From contig CP018627.1 of NCBI GenBank assembly GCA_002021875.1, forward strand, positions 9,052,001 to 9,116,000: a DNA stretch of 64,000 nucleotides, written 5' to 3'. Under the pieces are notes generated by a model. It was not told where the DNA came from, made no database searches, and worked only from the letters and a program-made list of their open reading frames with translations. Positions 32,521 through 47,184 of this stretch are shown piece after piece; positions within the stretch are counted from its first letter, which is position 1; each line of letters starts with the position of its first letter. The DNA comes from Streptomyces hygroscopicus (GTDB taxonomy: Bacteria > Actinomycetota > Actinomycetes > Streptomycetales > Streptomycetaceae). Position numbers and translations under genes: made by a program.

Positions 32521-33441
32521 TCAGAACGTGTGCCAGCGCACCGTCGGGTCGTCCTCCCGCAGGGAGGCGATGCGGCGGGTGAACTCGGCGCGTGCCGCCG
32601 GGTTGCCCGGGGCGTGCTGGGCGACCCAGGCGCAGCTGGCGGTCTCCCGCGCGCCGCGCAGCACCGCGCAGCCGGGCCACTCCCGGACGTCCCAGCCGTA
32701 CTCCGCCACGAACGCGTCGTACGCCGCCGCGCCGAGCCCATAGCGGTCCCGGGACAGCGCCATCACCACCAGATCGTGCTCGCGCAGATCGTGCGAGAAG
32801 GTCTCCAGGTCCACCAGCACCGGGCCGTCCGGGCCGATGTGCACATTGCGCGGCAGCGCGTCGCCGTGGATCGGGCCGGGGGTGAGCCGCGGGGTCAGCT
32901 CCTCGACGGCGGTCGCGAAGTCGTCCCGGCGGGCGCGCAGATACGCCGCGTCCGCCGGATCGATCGCGTCCCCGGCCAGCCGCAGCCAGCGCTCGATCCC
33001 GCCCAGCAGATCGCGGCGCGGCAGCGGGAGCGGTGCCGGATCGGCGGGCGGGTCGGGCAGCGCGTGCACCATCCGCAGCAGCTCCGCGAGGTCGCGCGGC
33101 CCGGCGGGGCGTACGGGATCGGGAAGCCGCTGCCAGTACGTGACGAGATGGTTGGCGAACGGAAGCGGCTGCTCGGAGCCGAAGCGCCGGTCGGGACGTA
33201 CCGCGGGCAGCCCCTCCCGGGCGAGCCAGTCGGCGATCCTCAGCTCCCGGGCGGCCCGGTCCCACACCTCCAGATCGCGGCTGATCCGGACCACCAGGGA
33301 GAGGCTGTCGACGGCGAAGACGGCGTTCTCACCGAGGGCCAGCAGCCGGGCCTCCGCCGTACCGGCCCGGTAGGGCGGCAGCGCGGCCGAGAGCACCGCC
33401 CGCGCCCGCTCCTCCGTCAAGGCGACATCCGCCACCGCCAC
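32521..33441 (-). CDS. Aminoglycoside phosphotransferase/kinase family protein
   Basis: A 306-residue APH-fold kinase: AEARLLALGENAVFAVD (glycine-loop region), LVVRISRDLEVWDRAARELRIADWL, the catalytic loop PGPIHGDALPRNVHIGPDGPVLVDLETFSHD (Brenner HGD-x4-N and the metal DLE). APH proteins phosphorylate antibiotics or small metabolites; the substrate is unknown. GTG 33441 has GAGGAG eight bases upstream; further in-frame GTGs at 33450 and 33435 are alternatives. It is divergent from the sugar ABC operon. Confidence 0.85.
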   Translation of the reverse strand: MAVADVALTEERARAVLSAALPPYRAGTAEARLLALGENAVFAVDSLSLVVRISRDLEVWDRAARELRIADWLAREGLPAVRPDRRFGSEQPLPFANHLVTYWQRLPDPVRPAGPRDLAELLRMVHALPDPPADPAPLPLPRRDLLGGIERWLRLAGDAIDPADAAYLRARRDDFATAVEELTPRLTPGPIHGDALPRNVHIGPDGPVLVDLETFSHDLREHDLVVMALSRDRYGLGAAAYDAFVAEYGWDVREWPGCAVLRGARETASCAWVAQHAPGNPAARAEFTRRIASLREDDPTVRWHTF

Positions 33442-33618: not shown

Positions 33619-34563
33619 GTGATACCCGTGACCGCCGCCTCGGCGCGCTCGGACCAGGGCTCCGCCCCACCCCCGTCGGCCGCCCCCGGCAAGGGCCCGG
33701 GCCGCGCGGCGAGCGGCCACCGGGCGTGGTTCCTGGTGCTGCCCGCGCTGATCCCGATCCTCCTGCTCAGCGTCGGCCCGCTGCTCTACGGCATCGTGCT
33801 CGCCTTCACCGACTCCCAGGCGGGCCGCACCGACCCCACCCAGTGGATCGGGCTGCTCAACTTCCAGGACCTGCTGCGCGACACCCTCTTCTGGGAGTCC
33901 TTCCGGATCGGCCTGGTGTGGGCGGTCGCCGTTTCCGTACCGCAGTTCCTGCTCGCGCTCGGACTCGCGCTGCTGCTCAATCAGAACCTGCGGTTCCGCT
34001 GGCTGTCGCGGGCGCTCGCGATCGTTCCCTGGGCGATGCCGGAGGTCGTGGTCGGCATCATGTGGCGGCTGGTCTACCACCCCGACGCGGGGCTGCTCAA
34101 CGAGACGCTCGGCACCCACCGCGACTGGCTCGGCAGCCTGTCCACCGCCCTGCCCGCCGTGGTCGTGGTCGGCATCTGGGCACGTCTTCCGCAGGTCACG
34201 GTCACCCTGCTGGCCGGGCTCTCCAATGTGCCGCGCGAACTGCACGAGGCCGCGGCCATGGACGGCGCCGGTGCCTGGCGCCGCTTCCGCACCGTCACCT
34301 GGCCCGCCATCAGACCCATCGCCCTCGCCATCAGCGCCCTCAGCTTCATCTGGAACGTCAACTCCTTCGCGCTGGTCTACGTCCTGACGGGCGGCGGGCC
34401 CGGCGGGCGCACCCGGCTGCCGATGCTCTTCGCCTATGAAGAGGCGTTCCGCTACGGCCAGTTCGGCTACGCGGCGGCGATGGGCTGTGTGCTGGTGGCG
34501 GTGGTCTCCATCCTGCTGGCCGTCCATCTCGTGGCCCGGCTGAAGGGAGACGACGACGCATGA
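33619..34563 (+). CDS. Carbohydrate ABC transporter permease, MalF-like
   Basis: A 314-residue inner-membrane permease with about six segments from residue 36. The EAA loop is LHEAAAMDGAGAWRRFRTVTWPAIRPI, which docks the ATPase. It forms a heterodimeric channel with the next protein. GTG 33619 follows AAGGAGG. No ATPase gene is present; Streptomyces sugar importers of this class commonly share the MsiK ATPase encoded elsewhere. The gene overlaps the second permease by ATGA. Confidence 0.9.
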   Translation: MIPVTAASARSDQGSAPPPSAAPGKGPGRAASGHRAWFLVLPALIPILLLSVGPLLYGIVLAFTDSQAGRTDPTQWIGLLNFQDLLRDTLFWESFRIGLVWAVAVSVPQFLLALGLALLLNQNLRFRWLSRALAIVPWAMPEVVVGIMWRLVYHPDAGLLNETLGTHRDWLGSLSTALPAVVVVGIWARLPQVTVTLLAGLSNVPRELHEAAAMDGAGAWRRFRTVTWPAIRPIALAISALSFIWNVNSFALVYVLTGGGPGGRTRLPMLFAYEEAFRYGQFGYAAAMGCVLVAVVSILLAVHLVARLKGDDDA

Positions 34564-35453
34564 CCACCCGCCCCACCGCCAGGAGTCCCCGCCCCAGCGC
34601 CGTGCGTCGCGGCCCCACCGTCCGGCGCCGCGCGGCCCGCACCGGCCAGTACCTCGCCCTCCTCGGCTATCTGGTCTTCCTCGCCTTCCCGCTGCTGTGG
34701 CTGGTCTCCACCGCGTTCAAACCGCCGCGCGAGCTGGCGAGCCTCCACCCCGGCTGGATCCCCGACCACCCCACCCTCGACAACTTCCGCCAGGCGTTCG
34801 ACGAGCAGCCGCTGCTGCGGTCCGCCGGGAACAGCCTGATCGCCTCCCTCGCCGCCGCGGCGATCACCGTCGTCATCGCCACCCCGATGGCCTATGTGAT
34901 GGCCCGGCACCACCGCTCCCCGCTGTCCCGGGCGGCCACCGGCTGGATCGTGGTCAGCCAGGCGTTCCCCTTCGTCCTGGTGATCATCCCGCTGTTCCTG
35001 GTGCTCAAGGAGGTCCGTCTGATCGACTCCCTCTCCGGGCTGATCATGGTGTACGTGGTGTGGTCCCTGCCGTTCGCCCTGTGGATGCTGGCCGGGTACG
35101 CCCGGGCCGTACCGCGCGAGCTGGAGGAGGCCGCGGCGGTGGACGGCGCGAGCAGACTGCGGACGCTGATCTCGGTGACCATGCCGCTGCTGGCCCCCGG
35201 CATCGTGGCCACCGCCCTCTTCGCCTTCATCACCGCCTGGAACGAGTTCTTCTTCGCGCTCGTCCTGCTCAAGTCCCCGCAGAAACAGACGATGCCGGTC
35301 ATCCTCACGCACTTCATCGGCACCGAGGGCGTCGCCGACCTCGGCCCGCTCGCCGCCGCCTCACTGCTGGCGACGCTGCCCTCGCTCGTGCTGTTCGCGG
35401 TCATCCAGCGCCGGATCACCAGCGGCACCCTGGCCGGGGCGGTGAAGCACTGA
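34560..35453 (+). CDS. Carbohydrate ABC transporter permease, MalG-like
   Basis: A 297-residue permease with six segments and the EAA loop LEEAAAVDGASRLRTLISVTMPLLAPG. Typical C-terminus AVIQRRITSGTLAGAVKH. Starts in the ATGA overlap with the first permease and ends in TGATG with the binding-protein gene, so the three are translationally coupled. With the shared ATPase it should import an oligosaccharide. Confidence 0.92.
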   Translation: MTTRPTARSPRPSAVRRGPTVRRRAARTGQYLALLGYLVFLAFPLLWLVSTAFKPPRELASLHPGWIPDHPTLDNFRQAFDEQPLLRSAGNSLIASLAAAAITVVIATPMAYVMARHHRSPLSRAATGWIVVSQAFPFVLVIIPLFLVLKEVRLIDSLSGLIMVYVVWSLPFALWMLAGYARAVPRELEEAAAVDGASRLRTLISVTMPLLAPGIVATALFAFITAWNEFFFALVLLKSPQKQTMPVILTHFIGTEGVADLGPLAAASLLATLPSLVLFAVIQRRITSGTLAGAVKH

Positions 35454-36757
35454 TGCGCCGCCGAACACTGCTGGCCGCGTCCGCCGCCGGGACGCTGTCC
35501 GCCGCCGGGACCCTGCTCTCCGCCTGCGCGCCCGGACGGCGGCGGGCGTCCGACGGCCGGATCACCCTCCGCTTCCAGTCCCTGGCCTGGCAGCAGGAAT
35601 CCATCGAGGCCAACAAGCAGCTCGTGGCCGAATGGAACGAGGCCCATCCCGACATCCGGGTCGACTACGTCCAGGGCAGTTGGGACAGCGTCCACGACCA
35701 ACTGCTCACCTCCTTCGAAGGCGGTGAGGCGCCCGACATCATCCACGACGCCACCGACGACCTCGCCGACTTCGCCTACGGCGGCTATCTCGCCGACCTC
35801 ACCGACCTGCTGCCCCGGCGGCTCAAGGACGAGATCCCGCCCCAGACCTGGCAGACCGCCACCTTCGGCGGTGCCGTCCACGGTGTGCCGTTCCTCCAGG
35901 AGCCGCGCGTGCTCATCGCCAACCGCGCCCTGCTGGAGCGGTCCCGGGTGCGGATCCCCACCCCCGAACGGCCCTGGAGCTGGGGGGAGTTCGAGGACGC
36001 CGCCAAGGAGCTGACCCGCGACGGGACGTACGGCGTGGCCTGGCCGCTCAAGGAGCCCGTCTCCGCGACCCTCAACCTCTCCCTGTCCACCGGCGGCAAG
36101 GTCTTCCACCGGGGCGCGGACGGCAAGGTCACCGTCCGGTTCGACGCCGCCGACCAGCGGGTGCCCCGCGTCATCCACGACCAGCTGGGCGGCGACCGCA
36201 GCGCCGCGCGGACCACCCTCGGCATGGGCGGCTCGGACACCCTCCCCGGCTTCTTCGGCGGGAAGTACGCGATGGTGCCCCTCGGCTTCTCCTACCGCCA
36301 GCAGATCGTGCAGCAGGCGCCCAAGGGCTTCGCCTGGACCGTACTGCCGTCCCCGGCCGGACCCGGCGGCGACCAGCGGCAGGGGGTCAGCCCGCAGACG
36401 CTGTCCATCGCCGCCGACAGCCCGTACCAGCGGGAGGCGGCCCGCTTCATCGACTTCTTCCTGCGCCCACCGCATATGGTGCGGCTCGCCCGCGGCGACT
36501 GGATGCTCCCCACGGGCCTGACCGCGCTGCGCGACCCCGCCCTGCACACCCGCCGGCACGGCTGGGCCACCGGCGCCGCCCTGGCCGGACGGCTGCGCCC
36601 GGCGCCCGCCCAGTCGGTGCGCGGCTATCCGGAGTGGAAGGACAAGGTGGCCACCCCGGCGCTGCAGGAGTACTACAGCGGGGCGATCGGGATGCGGGAG
36701 CTACGGGAGCGGCTGGTCGAGGACGGCAATCTGGTGCTCGCCCGCTACCAGCGGTAG
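35453..36757 (+). CDS. Extracellular sugar-binding lipoprotein
   Basis: The N-terminus MRRRTLLAASAAGTLSAAGTLLSAC is an Arg-rich signal with lipobox L-S-A-C (Cys25), so it is tethered outside the membrane. The body is a type-1 sugar-binding protein: FQSLAWQQESIEANKQLVAEWNEAHPDIRVDYVQGSWDSVHDQLLTSFEGGEAPDIIHDA, YLADLTDLLP and YGVAWPLKE. The gene order permease-permease-binding protein is the reverse of the common order in sugar operons. The sugar cannot be read from sequence. A 6-bp stem GACGGC-CTC-GCCGTC (36782-36796) after the gene may help termination. Confidence 0.9.
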   Translation: MRRRTLLAASAAGTLSAAGTLLSACAPGRRRASDGRITLRFQSLAWQQESIEANKQLVAEWNEAHPDIRVDYVQGSWDSVHDQLLTSFEGGEAPDIIHDATDDLADFAYGGYLADLTDLLPRRLKDEIPPQTWQTATFGGAVHGVPFLQEPRVLIANRALLERSRVRIPTPERPWSWGEFEDAAKELTRDGTYGVAWPLKEPVSATLNLSLSTGGKVFHRGADGKVTVRFDAADQRVPRVIHDQLGGDRSAARTTLGMGGSDTLPGFFGGKYAMVPLGFSYRQQIVQQAPKGFAWTVLPSPAGPGGDQRQGVSPQTLSIAADSPYQREAARFIDFFLRPPHMVRLARGDWMLPTGLTALRDPALHTRRHGWATGAALAGRLRPAPAQSVRGYPEWKDKVATPALQEYYSGAIGMRELRERLVEDGNLVLARYQR

Positions 36758-38069: not shown

Positions 38070-39002
38070 TCAGGGCAGGTGGGTGGCGGTCAATTCCTTC
38101 TCCCAGCGGAGAAGGCCGTCGAAGTACCGCCGGCCCTCGTCCGTCCACTCGGCGGCCGGCTCCAGGGCCGTGATGGTGCCCCTGAGGCGACGTAGGGCGT
38201 CGTCGCGCCGTGCGGTGACTTCGGGTGGTGCCATCGGCTCCGCCGCCCAGCGAGTGAGCCCGTACGCCATGCGGGCCAGGACGTGGGCGGCGTGCACGGC
38301 ACCGGCGACCGGTCGCGGATCGGGACGCAGCGGGTGGCTGATGACGACGTCGCCATTGGTGACGAATGTGGCGAAGAAGTTCCGCAGGTACAGGGCATGG
38401 TGGCCGGTCTCGTGCAGGAGTGCTTCGAAGGCGGCCGGGGTACTCTCGACGCTGGAGGTGCCGAGGTAAATGGCGCCGAAAGTCTGGCGGAGCGTGGCCG
38501 ACCGGAAGGCGCCACCCTGGACGTACACGATGACGCGGATCAGCAGGTCCGTTTCCAGGGCGGCTTCCGGCCAGACCCGCCGCAAGATCTCGCGGGCGGC
38601 TTCCAGGTGCGCGATCCCCTCCGTCAGGTCCGGGGCGCCGAAGTCGGCGTCGTCCGTTCCTCTGGTCCTCCGTATGTCGGCGAGCAGTTGGTCCGTACCC
38701 CATCGGCACCAGTCGGGGAACGAGGACGAACCGTCGGGTGTGAGGTGTTCGAGCGGAGGCATCAGGCCGGCGCTCGCCAGAGCGCGGCCCAGCTCTGCGA
38801 GGTAGGCGGGGTCCGCACCGCTGCCGGGGGGCGTGCGGGTCGCCGCCCAGACCAGGGCGGGGTGCAGACAGGCCGGTTCGGGCCCGGCCGGGAAGGTCGA
38901 TTCCAAGCGCCGGAGGACTTCCCGGTAGTGGCCACGGACCAGGCTCAAGGTGCCGGCCGGCGTGATGCCGACCCGGACCGCCTCATCCTGCCCGGCACCC
39001 AT
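38070..39002 (-). CDS. HExxH-motif peptide-modification protein (aKG-HExxH-type beta-hydroxylase family)
   Basis: A 310-residue protein with LLHETGHHALYL, giving H197-E198-x2-H201, and the downstream HPLRPDPRPVAGAVHAAHVLARM. Both are landmarks of the HEXXH putative peptide-modification family (TIGR04267). Members of this family have recently been shown to use alpha-ketoglutarate and iron to beta-hydroxylate RiPP precursor residues; the identity here is by motif. It is the last gene of the operon that starts with a 50-residue peptide gene. Its ATG overlaps the JmjC stop (TGATG). Most likely it hydroxylates the core of that peptide; a peptidase role is the older alternative. Confidence 0.75.
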   Translation of the reverse strand: MGAGQDEAVRVGITPAGTLSLVRGHYREVLRRLESTFPAGPEPACLHPALVWAATRTPPGSGADPAYLAELGRALASAGLMPPLEHLTPDGSSSFPDWCRWGTDQLLADIRRTRGTDDADFGAPDLTEGIAHLEAAREILRRVWPEAALETDLLIRVIVYVQGGAFRSATLRQTFGAIYLGTSSVESTPAAFEALLHETGHHALYLRNFFATFVTNGDVVISHPLRPDPRPVAGAVHAAHVLARMAYGLTRWAAEPMAPPEVTARRDDALRRLRGTITALEPAAEWTDEGRRYFDGLLRWEKELTATHLP

Positions 39003-39961
39003 CAGGCGTCACCCGACCGGGGCTCCACTGCCAGGATCTTGCCGAGCGAGGCTGTCTCCGCCTTCTTGAGCTGCTGTTCGCGGGCCTGGAGACGCCGCAC
39101 CACCAAAGCGGAGATCAGCTCGTCGCCCAGACTCTCCAAGGTGCGGAAGATGTCTTCCCGGACCTCCCTCCAGATCTCTTTCGACTGGCCGCTCAGCGCC
39201 TCGGACTTGCTGGGCAGCCGGCCACGCAGGGCGACGCTCCGTTCGGCGGCGAGGTCCAGGACGTCATGCAGGATCTGGGTCCAGGTGTCCTCGACCCCGT
39301 CGGAGAAGGCGATGTGGACGGAACCCTCGGCTCCCGTGGTGCCCTCGTGGTAATAGCCACGCGGCAGGTAGAGGCAATCACCGGCGTGGAGGGTCACTTC
39401 GAGACACAGCGGGGTCTGCGGGGCGACGCCCGGCTTCGAGCGCTTGACCGGCCACTGCTTCGGCGGCTCGTGCAGGCGCCAAGTCTTGGAGCCGGCGAGC
39501 TGGCGTATGAAGATACTCGCAAGGTCGTAGTGGGCCTCGGCGCCCTTGGAGTGTGGTGGGGTCAGGAAGGCGTTGGCGGCGACGGGGACTCCAATGTCCT
39601 CGGAGAGCTCCGCGCAGAAGGCTTCCACCTCGGGACAATAGGTGGACATCGCCTGGAAGACGAGGGTCGCGCCCTCCTGCATCTGCGCCACGACATATCC
39701 CGGATCCGCGAGCCCGGACAACACCCGGCGCTCGTCGGCCCCGTCGTCCCCTGGCTTGGTGGCATTCCGGACCCCGATGTCCTGGCCATGACGCCACAGC
39801 CTGATGTAGGGGGTGCGCAGTCCTCGTTCGAAGAGGAGCTGTTGTGCGAGGTCCGTCGAGAACACATGGCCCAACTCGCCCATGGCTCGGCTGACGTACG
39901 GCTGGGTGTCCCGTATGGACACCAGCTTCGACGGGTCGTCGAGGAGCATCTCCACTGCCAT
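39002..39961 (-). CDS. JmjC/cupin-like Fe(II)/2-oxoglutarate oxygenase
   Basis: A 319-residue JmjC-type protein. EAHYDLASIFIRQLAGSKTWRLHEP supplies H144-x-D146 of the iron triad and the conserved K/R-x-W strand. CLEVTLHAGDCLYLPRGYYHEG supplies the third ligand H205. The layout matches bacterial ROXA/FIH-like protein hydroxylases, which modify side chains of proteins or peptides. The ATG 39961 begins two bases after the MFS gene stop, so it is translationally coupled in the RiPP-like operon. The C-terminal 90 residues are helical (KSEALSGQSKEIWREVREDIFRTLESL) and may be a dimer or substrate-binding arm. The predicted substrate is the 50-residue peptide. Confidence 0.8.
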   Translation of the reverse strand: MAVEMLLDDPSKLVSIRDTQPYVSRAMGELGHVFSTDLAQQLLFERGLRTPYIRLWRHGQDIGVRNATKPGDDGADERRVLSGLADPGYVVAQMQEGATLVFQAMSTYCPEVEAFCAELSEDIGVPVAANAFLTPPHSKGAEAHYDLASIFIRQLAGSKTWRLHEPPKQWPVKRSKPGVAPQTPLCLEVTLHAGDCLYLPRGYYHEGTTGAEGSVHIAFSDGVEDTWTQILHDVLDLAAERSVALRGRLPSKSEALSGQSKEIWREVREDIFRTLESLGDELISALVVRRLQAREQQLKKAETASLGKILAVEPRSGDA

Positions 39962-39962
39962 C

Positions 39963-41222
39963 TCATACCTTCGCGTTTTCGGGGACCGACTGTTCTTCCT
40001 GATGGAAATCACGCACCCCGGGCACCGTCAGCGCCAGCAATGCGGCGCCGAGCTGGACGACCGCGGCGACGACGAGGACGGTCGTGCGGCCCACTGCTTC
40101 TGCCAGCGGCCCGATGAAGGCCAGGCCCAGCGGCAGCAGAGCGAGGCTGCACAGCCAGTCGACCGAGCTGACCCTGCCGAGGATCGACGGGGCGAACTGG
40201 CGTTGGAGTGCTGTGTGGAGGAGCGTGTTGAAGGGCATCATCGCGAATCCGGCGATCATGTACCCGGCTACCACCCACCACAGTGAGAACGGGCTGAGCA
40301 GGACGAGCGGTACGAGCGTGAAGAGGGCATTGAAGATCATCGCGCTCGTTCCGGGATGCTTCAGCCGGATCCGTCCGACGACGATCGTGCCGATGAAGCC
40401 GCTGAGGCTGAACATGGCGATGACGAAGCCGTAGGTGGAGGGCCCGGAGAACTCCTCCTGGGTGATGATCGGCAGGAGGACCATGTGGGGGGCGACGACC
40501 AGCATGGTCTGCACGGCGGTCATGGCGAGGATGGCCGATGTCCAGCGGACGCGGCGTACCGCCGACAGTCCTTCGCTGACCTCCTGGATGATGGAGGAGC
40601 GGGTCGTCGGCCGATTCATCGGCGGTTCGGTGACCGCGAGGACACACAGCAGGCTGACCGCGAACGTTGCCGCGTTGACGGCGAAGGCCACCCGGGTGCC
40701 GACGGTGGCCACCAGTACGCCGCCGAGCGCCGGCCCCACCACGGCTGCCGCGCTCTCCATGCTGCCTCGCCAGACGTTGGCGCTGAGCAGCCGGTCCTCG
40801 GGCACGATTGAGGGCACCAGACCGCCGTACGCGGGCCGGAAGAACGCCTCACCGCTGCCCACCAGGAAGGTCATCACAGCCAGCGACAGGGTCGCCGTGT
40901 CGAACGCGCCCAGCACCACCACGGTGATGGCCACCATCCGGAACGCGTCGGCAAGCACCATCGCCCGTCGCCGGGGCACGCGGTCTGCCCAGACACCGCC
41001 GAGCAGTGCGAACAGGACCGTGGCGAGCATCCGGGCGCCGATCACCAGCCCGACGTCGCCGGCGTCTCCGCCGCTCTCGATCACCCGGAGCGATACGGCC
41101 ACGTTGAAGAGCTGGTCTCCCACGGCGCTGACCGCTTGCCCCGCCCAGAGGAACCGAAAGCTGCGCAGCTCCATTGCGCTGCCGGCCAGGCGGCCGGCCA
41201 GGAGAGTCTTGAGGTTGGGCAT
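39963..41222 (-). CDS. MFS transporter, enterobactin exporter-like
   Basis: A 419-residue MFS protein with about twelve segments. Motif A-like VWADRVPRRRAMVLADAFRM lies near residues 77-96, and FLWAGQAVSAVGDQLFNVAV is a start typical of the EntS-type exporters. In the operon it sits between the M29-like and JmjC genes and is the only transporter, so it likely exports the finished peptide. Starts two bases after the M29-like stop. Confidence 0.85.
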   Translation of the reverse strand: MPNLKTLLAGRLAGSAMELRSFRFLWAGQAVSAVGDQLFNVAVSLRVIESGGDAGDVGLVIGARMLATVLFALLGGVWADRVPRRRAMVLADAFRMVAITVVVLGAFDTATLSLAVMTFLVGSGEAFFRPAYGGLVPSIVPEDRLLSANVWRGSMESAAAVVGPALGGVLVATVGTRVAFAVNAATFAVSLLCVLAVTEPPMNRPTTRSSIIQEVSEGLSAVRRVRWTSAILAMTAVQTMLVVAPHMVLLPIITQEEFSGPSTYGFVIAMFSLSGFIGTIVVGRIRLKHPGTSAMIFNALFTLVPLVLLSPFSLWWVVAGYMIAGFAMMPFNTLLHTALQRQFAPSILGRVSSVDWLCSLALLPLGLAFIGPLAEAVGRTTVLVVAAVVQLGAALLALTVPGVRDFHQEEQSVPENAKV

Positions 41223-41224
41223 GC

Positions 41225-42358
41225 TCAGCCGACCGTGCTCGCCGCCGCGGGATCCGTCAGCTCTCCGTAGCCGAACCCACAGCAGTCGCCCGTGATGTCC
41301 TCGTCCCGCACCAGCTCAGGGTGGTCGGCGCCGGACAGCTGGAGGTTGGCCAGATCGACGGGTTCGGGCTCATCGCCGATGTAGATCTCCGCGCCGTCGG
41401 TGATGAGGTCGAGGTGCACCTTCTCCTCGTAGTCGACCACGGCACGATCCTGATTGTGCTGCCCGAACCCGATGTGCACTCCGACTCGCCGTTCATTGAT
41501 GTGCGAGTTGGCCGGGATGAACCGGTCGATGCCCGAGTTCGTTCCGAAGCCCAGTTCGCCCACCCGGGTGCCGTACGGCTGCTTGAAACACAGTGCCACC
41601 AGCTCACGGACGTCGTCATCGCCACCGGTGAAGCCCGTAGCGCGCCCGTCCATGATGTCAACCGTCAGCGGGCGGGCCGTCAGCCGTGTGTCGATGCGGG
41701 TGATGACGTTGCAGTTGAGAGCCCCGTCCGCCACCAGGCGGCCGTCGATCCTGGCGGGGTAAGTGGCGATCTCCCCCGCCGGAAGGATGGTGAAGCCGCC
41801 CGGCCGCCACACGCCGCGATTGCTGATCCAGTCGTACCGCCCGGCGTCAAGCTGGATACGGAGGTTGGTGCCGCCTCGGCTGCGGACTCTGATGCTGTCG
41901 GCCTTGGTCAGGCGGGTCAGCAGTGCGGCGTTGCGGGCACTGAGTTCGTCCGGTCCGAGGTTGAGGGCCTGCTCGAAGAACTCTCGGGACGCGCTGATGA
42001 CGCGGACCACCATGCACCGGTCACTACCGAACTGTTGCATGACGTGCAGGAGCGGCGAGAAGTGGGACATCGTGTCTCGTTCGAGCGTGAATATGACGAG
42101 CCGGCCGGTGAAGGTTTCAGCGTCCGGTACGGCGGACTTCAGGCGTGCGGCGAATCCGAGATCCACAAGTGGTCGCATGGCGATGAACTGGCTGCTGATC
42201 TTTCGCTGCTTCAGTCCGGCGACTAGCCAGGCGGCTGCCTCCCTGCTGTCCGGGGTGAAGACGACGATGCAGTGATCGCGGACGGAGAGGCCGGCATACC
42301 GGTTGAGGAGTGCGTCGACTCCATCCTGTACGTCGCGGCTGGACTGCACAGCGGTCAA
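41225..42358 (-). CDS. M29 aminopeptidase-like metalloprotein
   Basis: A 377-residue chain resembling the M29 (aminopeptidase T/PepS) superfamily. Aligned landmarks are FTILPAGEIATYPARIDG (E196), GTRVGELGFGTNSGI (E268), GVHIGFGQHNQ (H295), and KVHLDLITDGAEIYIG (H315/D317); all are metal ligands in the family. M29 enzymes remove N-terminal residues; related folds also serve as dioxygenases. Within a peptide operon it may trim the leader or act on the core. TTG 42358 is chosen because GCAGGAGGAG precedes it by eight bases. It is 109 bases downstream of the peptide gene, with a strong hairpin between. Confidence 0.65.
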   Translation of the reverse strand: MTAVQSSRDVQDGVDALLNRYAGLSVRDHCIVVFTPDSREAAAWLVAGLKQRKISSQFIAMRPLVDLGFAARLKSAVPDAETFTGRLVIFTLERDTMSHFSPLLHVMQQFGSDRCMVVRVISASREFFEQALNLGPDELSARNAALLTRLTKADSIRVRSRGGTNLRIQLDAGRYDWISNRGVWRPGGFTILPAGEIATYPARIDGRLVADGALNCNVITRIDTRLTARPLTVDIMDGRATGFTGGDDDVRELVALCFKQPYGTRVGELGFGTNSGIDRFIPANSHINERRVGVHIGFGQHNQDRAVVDYEEKVHLDLITDGAEIYIGDEPEPVDLANLQLSGADHPELVRDEDITGDCCGFGYGELTDPAAASTVG

Positions 42359-42414
42359 GACGTGCTCCTCCTGCTTCGGGCCGGGTCGATGGGAGTTCCG
42401 GGCAAAGGGAGGGA

Positions 42415-42443
42415 TCCGGCCGCAGGGATCACGCGCGGCCGGA
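42415..42443 (-). terminator. 9-bp-stem hairpin between the peptide gene and the M29-like gene
   Basis: TCCGGCCGC (42415-42423) pairs perfectly with GCGGCCGGA (42435-42443) around an 11-base loop. It is placed just after the peptide stop, where many RiPP operons have a partial terminator or RNA-stability hairpin so that precursor mRNA exceeds that of the enzymes. Confidence 0.6.
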
Positions 42444-42467
42444 ACCCCGAGAGCCTTGCCGGCACTG

Positions 42468-42620
42468 TCAGGTGGAGACGAACCACGCCATCAGCGGCCC
42501 CTCGTCACCACTGCCGACCGGCACGAGGACCTCGTCCGATTCGGCTGCGGAGAGCTCGCGCAGTGCGTCCTCGACCAGCGACTCGTACGTGGCCATTTCC
42601 GCGGTATGAGCTTGCGTCAT
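42468..42620 (-). CDS. 50-residue RiPP precursor peptide candidate
   Basis: The complement of 42468-42620 encodes a 50-residue peptide starting MTQAHTAEMATYESLVEDAL, with RELSAAESDEVLVPVG in the middle and SGDEGPLMAWFVST at the C-terminus. The ATG has AGAGGGAGTCAGG immediately upstream. The first 30 residues are acidic and helix-prone (YESLVEDALRELSAAE), like RiPP leader peptides. The C-terminal 15-20 residues are distinct and hold the residues (Asp, Pro, Trp, Phe, Val, Ser, Thr) that hydroxylases can modify. It opens an operon with two putative peptide oxygenases, an M29-like protein and an exporter. I recognise no known precursor family. The C-terminus F-V-S-T recalls FxSxx-COOH peptides but is one residue short. 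Confidence 0.65.
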   Translation of the reverse strand: MTQAHTAEMATYESLVEDALRELSAAESDEVLVPVGSGDEGPLMAWFVST

Positions 42621-42653
42621 CCTGACTCCCTCTCAGACAACAACGGTGGTGCG

Positions 42654-42682
42654 ACGCTATGCATTATGGATATGCAAAGCAA
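42654..42682 (-). promoter_or_regulatory. Candidate promoter of the peptide operon
   Basis: On the minus strand TTGCTT (42682-42677) and TAGCGT (42659-42654) are 17 bases apart and the start codon is 34 bases after the -10. Local GC drops here, as expected of a promoter. The elements are near-consensus for Streptomyces housekeeping promoters but not proven. Confidence 0.4.

Positions 42683-45963: not shown

Positions 45964-47184
<1,221 letters not shown>

Follow-up and report, generated by a model that had tools for sequence, protein, structure and literature searches.

Which member of a biosynthetic gene set directs the modification of a small peptide, when the oxygenases encoded beside it change from locus to locus, is the question raised by a five-gene operon of Streptomyces hygroscopicus. 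The operon lies on the minus strand (42620-38070) of the stretch analysed here, a window of 64,000 nucleotides at 9.05-9.12 Mb of a genome that forms a single 12.0-Mb contig (CP018627.1), and it encodes a 50-amino acid peptide, a protein resembling the M29 aminopeptidases, a major facilitator superfamily (MFS) exporter, a JmjC protein and an HExxH protein. We consider it likely that the operon represents a family of pathways for ribosomally synthesized and post-translationally modified peptides (RiPPs) organized around a small precursor and one constant protein of the CgnB/CgnE type, known from crocagin biosynthesis, with this M29-like protein presenting a tryptophan-containing segment of the precursor to the oxygenases encoded next to it. 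The features established from sequence on which this proposal builds are the gene set with its conservation and extent, selection on the peptide, intact metal motifs in the M29-like protein and both oxygenases, a fold like that of CgnB/CgnE, and homology between the precursors that accompany PhyH-type and P450 oxygenases.

The five-gene operon and its enzymes

Inspection of the reading frames bears out the original prediction for this locus in the number, order, coordinates and spacing of the genes (Table 1). In gene order the intergenic distances are 109, 2, 1 and -1 bp, the ATG of the peptide gene has GAGAGGGAGTCAGG just upstream, and the JmjC gene has a further in-frame GTG upstream, at 40012. 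The same five genes stand in the same order at eight further loci: six (L001-L005 and L020) belong to the 21 loci that the M29-like protein retrieved from named genomes, and L031 and L032 came from whole-genome searches. When 12 flanking genes of the window were compared with these eight loci, the single match at E <= 1e-15 was a DUF5753 protein of 33% identity in L005. The conserved unit consists of five genes. Its precursor peptide is under purifying selection, with ratios of nonsynonymous to synonymous substitution rates (dN/dS) of 0.02-0.39 over the last 40 codons in 21 pairwise comparisons among the window, L001-L005 and L020. Recurrence of the five genes in eight loci without their flanks, together with purifying selection on the peptide, leads us to infer that the set is a RiPP operon with a conserved leader, as had been proposed. 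A short precursor gene with leader and core is conserved beside the enzymes, and the tailoring enzymes come from families that act on RiPP precursors (TIGR04267 and PF08007).

The assignments made earlier for both oxygenases and the exporter also hold. The JmjC protein matches PF08007 (JmjC_2) at 1.8e-18, and its H144, D146 and H216 are invariant among seven aligned sequences. An HxD...H triad is the pattern of JmjC Fe(II)/2-oxoglutarate (2OG) oxygenases, and it is intact here; in PDB profile searches the protein matches the histidyl hydroxylases NO66 and MINA (1.2e-22 to 4.9e-18). The HExxH protein matches TIGR04267, the alpha-ketoglutarate (aKG)-HExxH-type peptide beta-hydroxylases, at 1.2e-18 (67.7 bits, the cut-off being 40), has the fold of the aKG hydroxylase ChlH, and keeps H197, E198, H201, H223, R226 and H237 invariant in an alignment of 10 sequences. 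The exporter is recognized by Pfam (Table 1). The five operon genes, two neighbours and 20 more window genes gave no Pfam match to radical SAM, YcaO, LanB/C/M or MNIO proteins, in keeping with the earlier observation that no Lan, YcaO or radical SAM gene was seen.

The M29-like family of this operon is sparse: counting the window's own genome each time, it occurs once among 61 relatives, in 8 of 392 genomes of the same genus and once in a phylum sample of 396 genomes. A JmjC match at 1e-25 is found in 45 of the 392 same-genus genomes; orthologues at least 75% identical occur in four (own genome included), all of which carry the M29-like gene and are among the eight, and the other 41 matches are at most 40% identical to the window protein. 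Among four of these 41 whose surroundings were inspected, one JmjC protein, 40% identical to the window's, lies in a row with YcaO, TfuA and MFS-like genes, as for a thioamide-type RiPP (genome G006, L057:4544-9250), and one 38% identical accompanies MFS, radical SAM, subtilase and GAF proteins (genome G209, L058:1937-8555). The latter locus also encodes a protein in which a short stretch is M29-like (32% over 104 amino acids) and, on the opposite strand, a 48-amino acid acidic peptide open reading frame (ORF) ending in NFGC. Elsewhere in the window's own genome there is a second, stronger TIGR04267 match of 174 bits (G000:C1:2005702-2006208, L061).

The precursor and its tryptophan

Homologous operons do keep a peptide ORF: at 28 of 28 loci one with a Trp near its C terminus precedes the M29-like gene (in L021, a HExxH-arginase-M29 unit), although Trp served in the selection of most of these ORFs. 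Within a 22-row precursor alignment this Trp is the only invariant column, with the same proviso about how most precursors were selected, and 26 of 28 have I, V or L two positions after it. The core motif offered in the original prediction has to be replaced accordingly. Its F-x-[ST]-x tail is not conserved: at the [ST] position the window alone has Ser, and the other eight of the nine loci with this gene set have Ala. What stays fixed is Trp, in most cases with x-[ILV] after it. An FxSxx-type precursor was considered and set aside: the peptide has F at -4 and no conserved Ser. Searches of Pfam and NCBIfam with the peptide gave just a sub-threshold prefoldin match (16.4 of 53.9 bits).

The W-x-[ILV] pattern alone is no evidence of relationship, as such an ORF occurs in 78 of 400 background windows, and we therefore ran profiles against 3,971 small ORFs drawn from 27 loci; the training peptides had themselves been picked with that pattern. 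Apart from the five PhyH-clade peptides used to build it, the first profile recovers a second copy in L007, all five P450-clade peptides (3.8e-6 to 1.1e-4) and L033 (0.0037). The P450-clade profile in turn finds all five PhyH loci (5e-10, 7e-4, 0.0065, 0.11 and 0.57), an unrelated ORF at 0.34 outranking the last. Since the two profiles find each other among so many small ORFs, homology of the PhyH-clade and P450-clade precursors appears well supported, although their oxygenases are not homologous. The JmjC-clade profile is weak outside its own clade, where an unrelated ORF (0.017) ranks between L009 (0.014) and L033 (0.026), and the homology of the window-clade precursors to the other two clades is argued mainly from position, leader pattern and Trp.

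A role for the peptide not as a RiPP precursor but as a small partner, regulatory or structural, of the M29-like protein strikes us as highly improbable. Its last ten residues vary at just three positions across the nine JmjC+HExxH loci, which is little for a core peptide, and no product is known; but two RiPP-family oxygenases and an exporter are encoded with it in one strand unit, L007 has a tandem pair of precursors, and a leader-core organization recurs across clades. The tandem pair, from Catellatospora (L007:3812-4265), differs at one core position (TIAYTT, TISYTT).

A constant M29-like protein with changing oxygenases

Besides the M29-like protein, the loci encode JmjC+HExxH, PhyH, P450, P450+HExxH, HExxH+arginase or no recognized oxygenase (Table 1). 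These labels rest on tblastn and Pfam matches for some of the neighbour genes: a Pfam scan of 58 proteins displayed 25 of 68 families, and certain genes, such as one of 1042 amino acids in L016, were not viewed individually. Among the genes looked at no oxygenase was recognized in L016-L019, L035 and L036. MFS and methyltransferase genes are frequent in loci outside the JmjC+HExxH group. When 28 M29-like proteins are placed in a tree rooted on two aminopeptidases, those of the JmjC+HExxH loci form one group (92/84) and those of the five P450 loci a clade (100/100) among the PhyH loci; the partner labels require six changes, the minimum possible, and placement is less certain for the long-branch rows L021, L016, L033 and L034.

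The original prediction had suggested that the M29-like protein could trim the peptide. We now think it best read as a CgnB/CgnE-type protein, because its fold and gene setting match those of CgnB, which has a di-zinc site, and CgnE, for neither of which the crocagin study observed aminopeptidase activity (PMC10070186). Structure comparison gives an M29-like fold over most of the protein. The presumed metal ligands E196, E268, E289, H295, H315 and D317 are invariant in alignments of 22 and 45 rows (the latter selected from 120 listed relatives) and make up the intact E, E, E, H, H, D set seen in CgnB; they were assigned from the order of the motifs and from an alignment with M29-type proteins, not with CgnB itself, and the last two His are spaced by 20 in the window protein and by 11 in CgnB. 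A C-terminal DCC motif follows (D358, C359, C360). The protein has no match in local Pfam or NCBIfam, and among PDB sequences nothing credible from CgnB/CgnE or M29 was found with the window protein, its relative P0103, or the 22- and 45-row profiles. As labels only, the UniRef names of P0038, P0103 and P0118 start with 'Crocagin biosynthetic protei', and Pfam PF26231/PF26233 are precomputed on most of the 120 listed relatives.

Because the peptide and the M29-like protein stay while the oxygenases change, and because CgnB and CgnE are described in the crocagin text as binding the precursor, with efficient turnover by CgnC only in the presence of both (PMC10070186), a guiding role for the M29-like protein is our preferred interpretation. 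Likewise, the persistence of Trp through changes of oxygenase class leads us to infer that this residue is kept by the M29-like protein rather than by any single oxygenase. According to this proposal, the M29-like protein would bind the leader helix, hold the Trp-containing C-terminal segment and present it to the JmjC and HExxH enzymes. These may then hydroxylate residues beside Trp, with F47, V48, T50 or Trp itself as candidates, before a protease encoded elsewhere would remove the leader and the MFS protein would presumably export the product.

Alternatively, the M29-like protein could be an active aminopeptidase which, without guiding the two oxygenases, trims the leader once they have hydroxylated the core. 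It shares its fold and presumed metal ligands with the M29 aminopeptidases AmpT, AmpS and PepS, and differs in its setting in a peptide-modification unit and in a DED...DCC C-terminal motif that is absent from the two aminopeptidases aligned. We hold the trimming role to be quite unlikely: N-terminal trimming would not demand that Trp be kept across oxygenase classes, an M16-peptidase gene near four of the five PhyH-type loci is a separate candidate for the task, and the crocagin text reports CgnB and CgnE without observed aminopeptidase activity (PMC10070186).

The M29-like protein might also alter Trp itself, as a metal-dependent ring-oxidising or cyclising catalyst, with the neighbouring oxygenases merely decorating the product. 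Its fold is shared with 2,5-dihydroxypyridine dioxygenase, an enzyme with a single iron and fewer of those ligands. The ligand set is of the dinuclear M29/CgnB type, and the loci in which no oxygenase was recognized may have one elsewhere in the genome, so that this idea seems rather unlikely. A related and more speculative extension of our own, which we regard as doubtful but possible, is a RiPP class centred on Trp and defined by the M29-fold protein as its catalyst: the two-metal site of this protein would act on the internal Trp, for instance by amide-to-indole ring closure as in crocagin or by indole oxidation, while the activating oxygenase (JmjC+HExxH, PhyH or P450) is exchanged in evolution. 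If true, CgnB-type proteins would constitute a module for Trp modification that can be transferred and combined with unrelated oxygenases.

The family bears on an open point of crocagin biosynthesis, namely what CgnB and CgnE do; there the two proteins are known with one dioxygenase, CgnC. At least four oxygenase sets combined with the same kind of M29-like protein and small Trp precursors amount to a natural experiment, in which any feature shared by all products should be due to the M29-like protein. The arrangement of a short W-x-[ILV] peptide gene ahead of an M29-like gene also offers a handle for mining RiPP clusters that have no radical SAM, YcaO or Lan gene.

Several loci have features of their own. 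In Nocardia alni (L021:5606-11149) the genes encode HExxH, an arginase-family protein, the M29-like protein, MFS and a methyltransferase, and the precursor tail VWYIAYRTF has an Arg after Trp that is a possible arginase target, as in biphenomycin. L017-L019 (Pseudomonas, Luteimonas) have a precursor with the core PW[ERK]ITW[AD]T and an M29-like gene, with no oxygenase recognized among the neighbours scanned. P0070, listed for the species of L006, is a second CgnB/E-type protein with presumed metal ligands intact, unlike the metal-dead second copy of crocagin.

Table 1. Features of the operon (window coordinates) and oxygenase partners of the M29-like protein at other loci
Feature	Position or locus	Strand	Remarks
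Precursor peptide gene	42468..42620	-	50 aa; leader YESLVEDALRELSAAES; C-terminal segment GPLMAWFVST
Trp46 codon	42483..42485	-	sole invariant column, 22-row precursor alignment
M29-like / CgnB-CgnE-type protein	41225..42358	-	377 aa; TTG start preceded by AGGAGG
MFS exporter	39963..41222	-	419 aa; Pfam MFS_1 8e-39, MFS_3 3e-32
JmjC-type Fe(II)/2OG oxygenase	39002..39961	-	319 aa; ATG at 39961; PF08007
aKG-HExxH-type peptide hydroxylase	38070..39002	-	310 aa; one-base overlap with JmjC gene
PhyH-type 2OG oxygenase	L006-L010
P450	L011-L013
P450 + HExxH	L014, L015
Weakly ATP-grasp-like protein	L014	opposite	below Pfam cut-off, E 0.0015
HExxH + arginase-family protein	L021
Weak HExxH match (29%)	L033		in gene directly after M29-like gene
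P450 match (27%)	L034	other	~3 kb off

Known systems and flanking genes

The operon resembles crocagin biosynthesis in that an Fe(II)/2OG oxygenase and a short precursor are encoded next to an M29-derived protein of the CgnB/CgnE type, and in having Trp in the modified segment (PMC10070186). Crocagin has two CgnB/CgnE copies, one metal-dead, whereas the window's genome has one CgnB/CgnE-type match; the crocagin core is a C-terminal Ile-Tyr-Trp, whereas the window peptide ends in AWFVST, with Trp fifth from the end and no Tyr-Trp (PMC10070186). The JmjC and HExxH oxygenases are likewise unlike crocagin, and the operon is without a carbamoyl-, glycosyl- or methyltransferase. The crocagin study places CgnB/E homologues in about 100 genomes, including Actinobacteria, mentions single-copy homologues with intact metal sites, and gives precursors predicted by RiPPER (PMC10070186).

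The earlier view that two such oxygenases on one precursor had not been described is overtaken by biphenomycin, where BipG is described as a JmjC ornithine hydroxylase and BipH as an HExxH hydroxylase, in a bip cluster that also has an MFS gene and one precursor (PMC12707348, PMC12257519). Biphenomycin clusters add MNIO, B12 radical SAM, arginase-type and TldD-type proteins, and no CgnB/E-type protein is mentioned for them (PMC12707348, PMC12257519); none of the four added types had a Pfam match in the five operon genes, two neighbours and 20 further window genes scanned, the remaining genome being unscanned for them. The window also differs from the aKG-HExxH hydroxylases ChlBH/ChlH and PflC/PosC in having no radical SAM fusion, no MNIO-nitroreductase and another precursor (PMC12636437). 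Bacterial relatives of certain PF08007 JmjC proteins are noted in RiPP-like contexts in a further report (PMC12710340). The open PubMed Central literature, supplements (including the crocagin RiPPER list) aside, yielded no description of the five-gene unit or of oxygenase exchange. What is new here is the wider family with exchanged oxygenases; the JmjC+HExxH pairing itself was already known.

Genes for an MMPL transporter, a subtilase (45964-47184) and a CDP-alcohol transferase were considered as operon members and rejected, having no match at 1e-15 in the eight other loci, each of which holds 4.5 to 9 kb before the M29-like gene. The subtilase carries an I9 inhibitor-type propeptide domain. 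At 32521-33441 of the window, an APH-type phosphotransferase gene adjoins a binding-protein-dependent ABC transporter set (33736-36757).

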